A DNA stretch of 64,000 nt from the NCBI GenBank assembly GCA_017460175.1, contig JAFUBO010000004.1:149592-213591 (forward strand). Direction: 5' to 3'. The position numbers and the translations under genes are program-made. This DNA comes from Bacilli bacterium. GTDB taxonomy: Bacteria; Bacillota_I; Bacilli_A; RF39; UBA660. The notes under the pieces were generated by a model. That model saw only the letters and a list, made by a program, of their open reading frames with translations. It was not told where the DNA came from and ran no database searches. Below, one piece after another: positions 5,053 through 38,220 of this stretch. Each line of letters opens with the position of its first letter. Position 1 is the stretch's first letter.

Positions 5053-6495
5053 TTACTTCCCTTCATGACAGTGACAGTCATCACCACAAGTGCATTCTTT
5101 TCCTTCATTACAGTGACATTCTCCACCGCAAGTGCATTCTTTACCGTCTTGGCATCCACAGTCACAATCTTCATCGCAGTGACAATGATCATGTTCACAA
5201 CCGCAGTCACATTCATCTTCACTACCTGCATTAATCATTTCATCTAAGTAATAGATTAATACATCAAGTGATATTATTTCTTCTTCTTTTGTTTTATTAT
5301 TTTTAATTTTAACTTCATTATTATTTAAATCTTCACTATTTAATACACAAGTAAATTTAGCATTTAATCTATCTGCTTGTTTGAATTGACCTTTTAATCC
5401 ACGACCAGTATACTCTGTTTCAACAATAAATCCAGCTAATCTTAATTCTTGTGTTAAATATGCTGCATATTTCTTTTCTTCTTCATTTACATACATAATG
5501 AATAAATCTATATCTTCTACTATTGGTAATTTTACTTTTTCAAGTTCTAAAGCCATTACAATTCTACCAATACCTGAAGCAAATCCTACACATGGTGTTT
5601 CTGGTCCATCTAATTGATTTACTAAACCATTATATCTTCCACCTGCACCTATTACGTTATTAGAACCAAATCCTTCTACTTTGGCTTCTATTTCAAATAC
5701 TGTGTGATTATAATAATCTAATCCTCTAACTATATTAGGATTAATTTCATAATTAATTTGCATTATATCTAAGTATTCTTGAACTTTTTCGAATCTATCT
5801 CTACTCTCTTCATTTAAATAATCTAATGTTTTAGGAGCTTTCTTTAACACTTCATTATCTTTATCTACTTTACAATCTAAGATTCTTAAAGGATTTTTTT
5901 CAAGTCTTTCATTACAATCTTCACAGAAATCTTTTATATGTGGCTTAAAGTATTCTATTAAAGCTTCTCTATATTTATTTCTTGACTCAGTATCTCCTAA
6001 AGTATTTAAATTAACTTTTATTTCTTTTAAACCTAGCATTTTATAAAGATTAACTGCAGCAGAAATAATTTCTGCATCAGTTAATGGATCATCACTACCT
6101 AGTATTTCCATACCAAATTGTGTTAGTTCTCTATCTCTACCACTTTGTGGTCTTTCATAACGATACATTGTGCCATTATAGTAAACTTTTACTGGTTGAT
6201 TAGGATCTCCATACATTTTATTTTCAATAAATGAACGTACTACTCCAGCAGTTCCTTCAGGTCTTAGTGTAATCTTTCTTCCACCTTTATCTTCAAAATC
6301 ATAACTTTCTTTAGTAACAATATCAGTGGTTTCTCCTACTCCTCTATGGAATAATTCAGTAGCCTCAAATATTGGAGTACGAATATAATTATAATTATAC
6401 TTTTCCATTAAAGCATCAATTACTTGATCTACATACTTCCAAACTTTAGCTTCTCTTCCATAAATATCATTACAACCTTTTTGTCTTTGTATCAT
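5053..6495 (-). CDS. hisS: Histidyl-tRNA synthetase with a C-terminal Cys/His-rich tail
   Basis: Class II HisRS: motif 1 region near RTPIFE, motif 2 YRYERPQSGRDRELTQFG, HisA motif VRGLDYYNHTVFE, and GAGGRYNGLV. The core ends near residue 420, the usual family length. About 60 extra residues follow. The last 52 contain 16 Cys and 6 His in CxC, CxCGC and ECTCG(G/D)xCHC patterns, with two near-identical copies of the KECTCG unit. This resembles a metallothionein-like metal-binding module. The start at 6495 is set by a strong AGGAGG; upstream frame lies in the T-box. First gene of the hisS-aspS operon. Confidence 0.93.
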   Translation of the reverse strand: MIQRQKGCNDIYGREAKVWKYVDQVIDALMEKYNYNYIRTPIFEATELFHRGVGETTDIVTKESYDFEDKGGRKITLRPEGTAGVVRSFIENKMYGDPNQPVKVYYNGTMYRYERPQSGRDRELTQFGMEILGSDDPLTDAEIISAAVNLYKMLGLKEIKVNLNTLGDTESRNKYREALIEYFKPHIKDFCEDCNERLEKNPLRILDCKVDKDNEVLKKAPKTLDYLNEESRDRFEKVQEYLDIMQINYEINPNIVRGLDYYNHTVFEIEAKVEGFGSNNVIGAGGRYNGLVNQLDGPETPCVGFASGIGRIVMALELEKVKLPIVEDIDLFIMYVNEEEKKYAAYLTQELRLAGFIVETEYTGRGLKGQFKQADRLNAKFTCVLNSEDLNNNEVKIKNNKTKEEEIISLDVLIYYLDEMINAGSEDECDCGCEHDHCHCDEDCDCGCQDGKECTCGGECHCNEGKECTCGDDCHCHEGK

Positions 6496-6499
6496 TTTA

Positions 6500-6697
6500 T
6501 CCCTCCTAAAATATAAAAAGGTAGCACTTTCAAAGGACGAATCTCTTCGTGGTGCCACCTTATTTTTACTCATTATACTTATAACGTAGTTACCCGAATT
6601 CTTTTTTGTGGGATGTCTTCATTTTATTTATTTAAGTATTTACACCAACCATACTCTCTCTAAAAAACTTATAAAACTACTCTTTCCCAAGAAGTTA
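6500..6697 (-). promoter_or_regulatory. T-box leader of hisS-aspS
   Basis: On the minus strand the leader contains the conserved T-box AAGGTGGCACCACG. It is followed by CGTCC and a terminator whose outer stem pairs AAGGTGGCAC with GTGCTACCTT before a T run (about 6514-6562). Stem I features include AGAGAG and the apical GGTTGGTGTAA. The likely specifier loop reads GAAGACATCCC. GAC (Asp) at 6615-6617 is the best placed specifier; an overlapping CAT (His) at 6613-6615 shares its last base. Uncharged tRNA would stabilise the antiterminator and switch on both synthetases. Confidence 0.88.
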
Positions 6698-36745: not shown

Positions 36746-36804
36746 TTGAACCCCTCTTTCCAAAACGTGTAGTAATTATATCATATTTCTTAAAAAATGT
36801 CAAT

Positions 36805-38196
36805 TTAAGTAAAGTTTTTAAATGATTTTAATATATTATTTTCTTTAGAATAAATTGCTAATAATTTACTATTTTTATTAATAAATATTACTTTATCTAA
36901 AATATTCCAATTATCATTTATAGGCATTCCATTAGATATTTTTTTCTCTAAATCAGTTTCTACCACTATTTTTTGATAATTTAGTGTATCTACAATACTA
37001 TGTAGTTTTAAATTATTGATGTCATTAATACTATCAGTATCGGTAATAGTAATATTTCCTTGTTTAGTTCTTTTTAAATCAGTCATAGTAGCATATACTC
37101 CTAAAGATTTACCTATATCATGGATTAAGCTTCTAATATAACAACCTTTAGTTACTAAACATTTAAATTTAAATGTATTATTATTATTTTCTAATAATTC
37201 TATTTCTTTAATAGTCACTTCTTTTTTTGGAAGTTCTACTTTTTTATTTTCTCTTGCATATTCATACAGTTTTTTACCATCTTTTTTTACTGCAGAATAT
37301 ATTGGAACTTCTTGCATATAAGTTTTTTTATAACTGTTTAATATTTCTTTTATATTTAAATTACTAGGTATTTCACATTTGTTTAAAACTTTTCCAGTAT
37401 TATCATATGTATCAGTTTCATAACCTAATTCAACTGTCGCAATATATTCTTTGTCTTTGCTTGTCAATAGTTCTACTATTTTACAAGCTTTACCTACTGT
37501 TACGATTAATACTCCTGTAGCTAAAGGATCTAATGTACCAGTATGTCCAACACGTTTTATACCAAAATTTTTACTAATAGTATTAACTACGTCAAAAGAA
37601 GTTACATCTTTTGGTTTATTAATATAAAGAATAGTTCCAAAATCTTTCATGTATTCTTCTAAACATAAATCGTTTTCATATATTATTTTAGCAGGAAACT
37701 CTCCAACATATCTAAAATGCCATGGTTCATAAGAGTATCCGGTAATAGTCTTTTTTTCTTTAGGATATCTTAATATAAATCCATATTTATGTAAATTTTT
37801 ATGTATTTCTTCAAATATATCTCTATATTCTAATAAATCCATATCTTCTCTTATATATCTATCATTTATTTTTAACATTATATCTATAGCTAAACCTGTA
37901 TGGTGTTCAGAGTAACCTGGGTCAGCTACATAGTTATCGCAATATTCTTGTCCATTATTTTCTAAATAATGATTATATAATTCTTCTTGTCTATTAATAC
38001 TCCTATATGAATCATCAATATCTATATAAATATTTTTACTTTTTAAAAATTCTTTTAGTTTTAAAAAATTATTATAAGCATTTTCTTCTACTTGTATTTT
38101 TTCATTTAATTCATTAATAGTGTTAATAAGATTACATTTATCAAGATAATTATTTTTTATTTTGTTTTCTTTATTAACAAGAACTGTGTATTTCAT
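36805..38196 (-). CDS. truB: Fusion of a VanY-type D,D-peptidase and tRNA pseudouridine synthase TruB
   Basis: One open frame of 463 codons with two unrelated enzymes. Residues 1-175 form an M15B VanY domain: SYRS, SEHHTGLAIDI (zinc ligands His98 and Asp105), EPWHFRYVG (Glu157, His160). It lacks a signal peptide. Residues 187-463 form TruB: INKPKDVTSFDVV, GHTGTLDPLATGVLIV (catalytic Asp223), VTKGCYIRSLIHDIG and a C-terminal PUA-like end. TruB makes Psi55 in tRNA. An internal ATG at 37648-37650 (Met183) sits at the junction and could yield free TruB, although its ribosome site is poor. Start chosen from GGTGATG before ATG 38196. Confidence 0.93.
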   Translation of the reverse strand: MKYTVLVNKENKIKNNYLDKCNLINTINELNEKIQVEENAYNNFLKLKEFLKSKNIYIDIDDSYRSINRQEELYNHYLENNGQEYCDNYVADPGYSEHHTGLAIDIMLKINDRYIREDMDLLEYRDIFEEIHKNLHKYGFILRYPKEKKTITGYSYEPWHFRYVGEFPAKIIYENDLCLEEYMKDFGTILYINKPKDVTSFDVVNTISKNFGIKRVGHTGTLDPLATGVLIVTVGKACKIVELLTSKDKEYIATVELGYETDTYDNTGKVLNKCEIPSNLNIKEILNSYKKTYMQEVPIYSAVKKDGKKLYEYARENKKVELPKKEVTIKEIELLENNNNTFKFKCLVTKGCYIRSLIHDIGKSLGVYATMTDLKRTKQGNITITDTDSINDINNLKLHSIVDTLNYQKIVVETDLEKKISNGMPINDNWNILDKVIFINKNSKLLAIYSKENNILKSFKNFT

Positions 38197-38220
38197 AACA
38201 TCACCAAGTAAATTATAACA

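Follow-up and report, generated by a model that had tools for sequence, protein, structure and literature searches.

A signal-less VanXY-like D,D-peptidase domain joined to the sole tRNA pseudouridine synthase TruB in a small-genome Bacilli bacterium

The window, by which we mean the whole analyzed stretch of 64,000 nucleotides, encodes on its minus strand a single ATG-to-stop open reading frame (ORF) of 463 codons that covers both a VanY/VanXY-type peptidase and TruB. The source genome is a draft of 991,710 bases in 6 contigs. The features of the locus are as follows.

36805–38196, minus strand: vanY-truB fusion ORF, 463 aa (open frame; 46 orthologous fused ORFs; Pfam VanY, TruB_N and TruB_C_2; AlphaFold2)
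37639–38196, minus strand: VanY/VanXY-type zinc D,D-peptidase domain, residues 1–186 (PF02557, 1e-34; fold matches; N-terminus not hydrophobic)
36805–37638, minus strand: TruB tRNA pseudouridine-55 synthase domain, residues 187–463, with Asp223 in GHTGTLDP (TIGR00431; 1k8w fold match)
37615–37662, minus strand: junction, residues 179–194, containing Met183 (AlphaFold2 model; junction codons of relatives)
38212–38217, minus strand: TATAAT −10 element, extended by a preceding TG (layout shared by relatives with and without the fusion)
38200–38205, minus strand: GGTGAT, ribosome-binding-like, 5′ of the start codon (found again ahead of both fused and unfused genes)

At this locus, the place of truB, a linkerless and signal-less VanXY-like peptidase is joined to the 5′ end of the only truB gene. 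The original prediction, made from the letters of the DNA, had proposed one uninterrupted frame for the two enzymes, and the domain assignment bore this out: Pfam placed VanY at residues 34–165 (E 1e-34), TruB_N at 210–354 (2e-49) and TruB_C_2 at 355–395. The zinc and catalytic residues that it named (His98, Asp105, Glu157 and His160 in the peptidase, Asp223 in TruB) are all present at those positions, together with Arg65 and Ser96. An AlphaFold2 model of the protein (mean pLDDT 93.7, pTM 0.87) folds both domains with high confidence, and the final helix of the peptidase (LEEY, residues 179–185) runs into the first strand of TruB (residues 187–194) with zero linker. In PLSDB plasmids, no place matched the fusion query at 80% coverage or more. 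Just 5′ of a LysM gene located after the fusion lies a perfect 12/12 sigma-70 promoter (36775–36803, minus strand; TTGACA-17-TATAAT, with TG before). Elsewhere in the window, a histidyl-tRNA synthetase-like ORF (5053–6573, minus strand) carries a Cys/His-rich tail of ~50 residues (CDCGCEHDHCHCDEDCDCGC...) that resembles a metal-binding tail.

The TruB half scores well above the cut-offs of both TIGR00431 (210 bits against 151) and PF01509 (168 bits against 27). Its modeled fold matches E. coli TruB in complex with a T-stem-loop (1k8w, Foldseek E 4.5e-26). The TruB profile is matched by all 33 aligned proteins, and the catalytic Asp of the GHxGTLDP motif is retained in every complete sequence. 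In the window protein, this Asp is accompanied by the conserved Tyr, Lys and Arg. No second TruB was found in the 6 contigs of the source genome, so the fused TruB is the sole copy.

In the peptidase half, the set of zinc ligands (His98, Asp105 and His160), catalytic Glu157, Arg65 and Ser96 is complete, and the PF02557 score is 119.6 bits against a cut-off of 25. The best NCBIfam model is VanXY (NF000380), whose 145.1 bits fall below the equivalog cut-off of 250, such that the domain is VanXY-like rather than filed as VanXY. The LdcB/DacB L,D-carboxypeptidase model (NF041194) follows at 104 bits, below its cut-off of 275, and the export signal of that class is absent. The fold matches are VanXYc (4oak and 4mus) and VanY (5hnm), with VanXYc 4oak the best among solved structures. 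Cytoplasmic VanXY enzymes are known from other bacteria. The predicted lack of a signal peptide was confirmed by the N-termini of the fused proteins, where the top 15-residue hydrophobicity does not exceed 1.32, compared with 2.9–3.35 in the lipoprotein and membrane paralogs. This indicates that the peptidase domain is cytosolic. Two additional VanY domains in the source genome both belong to proteins with a membrane N-terminus. The accompanying premise, that such a peptidase normally works outside the cell, is half right, because short VanY proteins that lack a signal are common in the family. On sequence grounds, the domain is thus best described as a VanXY-like, cytosolic enzyme and not as a misplaced wall enzyme. 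In the literature, the selectivity loop of VanXYG is reported to be absent from LdcB (PMC4087270).

The same architecture was found in relatives, with 46 fused ORFs in total, all from one family of small-genome Bacilli and all reading through the junction without a stop. When 40 related genomes were searched, the fusion turned up in 15 of the 25 genomes of the window's genus, its own genome counted, and the 14 fused relatives in that genus show 53–74% identity to the window protein. Eight further genomes of the genus encode TruB alone at the matching place, in one (G021, locus L046) the peptidase part is degenerate, and for G004 this search found no TruB. In the order sample, fused frames of 465–498 aa occur in g22, g26, g56, g68 and g85 among the matches listed. 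A family sample with each genus represented by about one genome yielded a TruB from 123 genera, 14 of which carry the fusion. The fusion has thus been retained across no fewer than 14 genera, with identity near 50%. Outside the family, a 72-residue junction query returned no fusion from a class sample (395 genomes, 193 genera) or a phylum sample (392 genomes, 155 genera); the same samples also miss some of the fusions within the family itself. The named relatives are uncultured Bacilli, one of them a goat-colon genome. In one genome of the window's genus, TruB (L019; G014:C4:37980-38813) has an in-frame TAG, which may reflect a pseudogene, a sequencing error or read-through. Among the papers searched, none was found on a VanY-TruB fusion or on any other TruB fusion.

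An assembly error or a missed stop could in principle have joined two genes, given that the genome is a draft in 6 contigs. However, since relatives retain the stop-free frame in many assemblies, this explanation is ruled out for practical purposes. The original prediction had also suggested a translational fusion by stop loss. A recent event of this kind is unsupported because the fusion spans at least 14 genera and sits in differing operon contexts: a polC side and a rimP-nusA side in the window's genus, rbfA-[fusion]-rpsO-pnp in g68, and [fusion]-ribF-rpsO-pnp in g85.

Whether the locus makes one product or two was approached from the junction codons of the 46 fused genes. Met183, put forward earlier as a possible start for a separate TruB, is replaced by Leu or another residue in most relatives and was rejected as a start site on that account. 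In 21 of the 46 genes, the 26-codon stretch that spans the junction contains no ATG, GTG or TTG; the ATG codons that do occur there belong mostly to the TruB motif KGMTS. It is thus unlikely that Met183 starts a second, TruB-only product. The TGnTATAAT promoter and the GGTGAT ribosome site precede the peptidase start, a layout shared with the truB-alone genes of sister species. Since an internal start is not conserved and the expression signals lie ahead of the peptidase, TruB is most likely produced solely as part of the fusion polypeptide.

Comparison of the fused proteins revealed that the peptidase half is maintained in most of them and has decayed in a few. The catalytic set is complete in 41 of the 46 proteins. 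The remaining five have a damaged set with the frame and TruB intact: Glu157 is replaced by Ser in L201, by Cys together with a loop deletion in L203, and by Gln together with other losses in L205 and L120, whereas in L046 (9052–10302, minus strand) the domain has shrunk and its Pfam VanY match is gone. Between close pairs, dN/dS is below 1 in both halves (VanY/TruB values of, for example, 0.33/0.16, 0.18/0.18 and 0.37/0.31), and both are thus under purifying selection. As the peptidase is decayed or absent in some lineages and the TruB Asp is never lost, the peptidase is useful but can be dispensed with, and TruB is needed. The in-frame decay at the five loci could also signal a non-catalytic role.

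To place the origin of the fusion, we considered trees of each half. In the TruB tree, the fused sequences cluster far beyond chance, and a clade of 37 sequences with high support (100/98) has truB-alone sequences nested inside it. In the VanY tree, 34 fused sequences and 7 stand-alone cytosolic VanY proteins form one group (93/82); the g68 fusions and L112 lie outside this main group, near lipoprotein types. A single origin was not rejected by the AU test (p = 0.37 and 0.36 for VanY, 0.30 for TruB). The simplest reading of these trees is one early fusion followed by several losses; two fusion events, with the g68 set separate from the main group, are possible.

Stand-alone VanY proteins of about 185–205 aa that lack a signal are widespread in the family, and at least 30 such frames occur in unfused genomes of the order sample. 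None of the 35 fused genomes has a second short cytosolic VanY, all their other copies lying in open frames of at least 272 aa, a count that comes from related genomes and hence is not an independent test. This distribution suggests that the fusion captured the stand-alone cytosolic vanY of the family, which we consider the most likely source of the fused copy. In another genus, locus L227 (3239–6161, plus strand) has the almost gapless order vanY (membrane type)-murE-truB-rpsO, with wall genes directly 5′ of truB, and a gene order of this type could be the arrangement from which such a fusion arises. At L075 (6752–7960, plus strand), also in another genus, a cytosolic VanY is fused to a second kind of partner, a C-terminal HAD-like part whose match falls just below the Pfam cut-off. 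A candidate pre-fusion arrangement of vanY-stop-truB in G527 (f10) was discarded: trxA lies upstream and the partial upstream match is due to chance. No VanY remnants were found by tblastn 5′ of unfused truB genes in the same genus.

The source genome encodes a D-Ala-D-Ala ligase (Ddl) beside murF, five transpeptidases, five Mur ligases and an S66 LD-carboxypeptidase-family protein, and the cell is thus expected to build a wall and to contain the D-Ala-D-Ala precursors for it. A study of these Bacilli orders (PMC10868615) predicts that certain steps of precursor synthesis are missing from RF39 members and that they may scavenge muropeptides. Provided that the RF39 order assignment holds, this fits a recycling peptidase. 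A cytoplasmic recycling role, or the peptide-scavenging one that the original prediction had suggested, is plausible. The fusion is genuine and old, and we think it probable that it yields a bifunctional, co-expressed cytosolic protein with two independent activities, in which the fused copy is a captured stand-alone vanY. In such a protein, the TruB half would isomerize U55 in the tRNA T-loop, and the peptidase half would remove D-Ala from the D-Ala-D-Ala dipeptide or from wall peptides ending in D-Ala-D-Ala. These peptides might come from imported or recycled muropeptides or from surplus precursor. Judged by sequence, the specificity may be VanX-like (dipeptides), VanY-like (pentapeptides) or LdcB-like (L,D bonds). 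Through the join, a housekeeping peptidase would always be expressed alongside a core tRNA enzyme, and a shared substrate would not be necessary.

Four other readings were weighed against this one. The join may be a neutral by-product of genome compaction, a chance fusion of neighbors with no selective value of its own. The genomes are tightly packed at about 1 Mb, L227 and L075 illustrate vanY-murE-truB order and a further VanY fusion, and there are several apparent losses. Retention in at least 14 genera with purifying selection on the peptidase argues the other way, but it shows that the peptidase is useful and not that the join is. We hold this reading to be somewhat unlikely, though it is the one we take most seriously among the alternatives. 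The VanY domain might instead have been co-opted for an RNA or translation job, for example as an additional module for tRNA binding or positioning, or as an enzyme for tRNA-borne D-aminoacyl or peptidyl groups, such that the two halves share one substrate. The domain does remain fused in five proteins after the loss of catalytic residues, and the missing linker and the pTM of 0.87 suggest, at the level of the model, a fixed domain arrangement. However, four of the five decayed domains changed or lost several conserved parts, which resembles decay rather than reuse, TruB alone suffices in species of the same genus, and the fused domain has stand-alone peptidases of an ordinary kind as its close relatives. 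Co-option is therefore unlikely.

A direct coupling of peptidoglycan to tRNA maturation has also been considered, whereby the peptidase would sense or process wall peptides, or act on tRNA-bound D-amino acids, and alter TruB activity or tRNA handling, with the decayed domain persisting as a structural or regulatory module. Such coupling is unsupported, and we regard it as quite improbable. A constitutive cytosolic VanXY could also destroy D-Ala-D-Ala precursors and confer glycopeptide tolerance, as VanXY is the nearest curated peptidase model (145 bits) and VanXYc the best fold match. Against this, the equivalog cut-off of 250 bits is missed; no vanH, D-Lac or D-Ser ligase or VanRS genes were recognized beside the fusion within the window; and the Ddl beside murF looks like a housekeeping enzyme, so that constant removal of D-Ala-D-Ala would be harmful unless the activity were low. 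Tolerance is very improbable as the purpose of the fusion. The reading that we prefer, a single polypeptide with two independent activities in the cytosol, unites two textbook enzymes of unrelated pathways in a multi-genus fusion that holds the cell's only TruB. Its natural variants (intact, catalytically dead, shrunken and absent) offer a ready-made test of whether function or inertia preserves a fused domain, and of any link between the recycling of wall peptides and tRNA modification.

Comparison with known systems places each half on familiar ground. The TruB half resembles the E. coli (1k8w) and Thermotoga (1r3e) enzymes in fold, in its complete catalytic and C-terminal domains, in the GHTGTLDP Asp and in being a single copy, and the fusion sits at the position of truB within the nusA-infB-rbfA-truB-rpsO-pnp region. 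Those enzymes start at strand 1, whereas the fusion has a 186-residue N-terminal peptidase instead. VanXY enzymes (VanXYc, 4mur and 4oak; VanXYG, 4f78) share the fold, the zinc and catalytic residues and the cytosolic location of the fused domain, which differs in being joined to TruB, in having no van cluster recognized adjoining it and in scoring below the equivalog cut-off. The VanY/LdcB wall carboxypeptidases (DacB and YodJ) belong to the same M15/LAS superfamily, with about 40% identity between extracellular relatives and the fused domain, but are secreted or membrane-anchored, unlike the signal-less fused domain. The stand-alone cytosolic VanY proteins of the family have the same start and length, likewise lack a signal peptide, and in some cases nest within the fused group of the VanY tree; they differ in that they are not joined to TruB and are encoded elsewhere in the genome.
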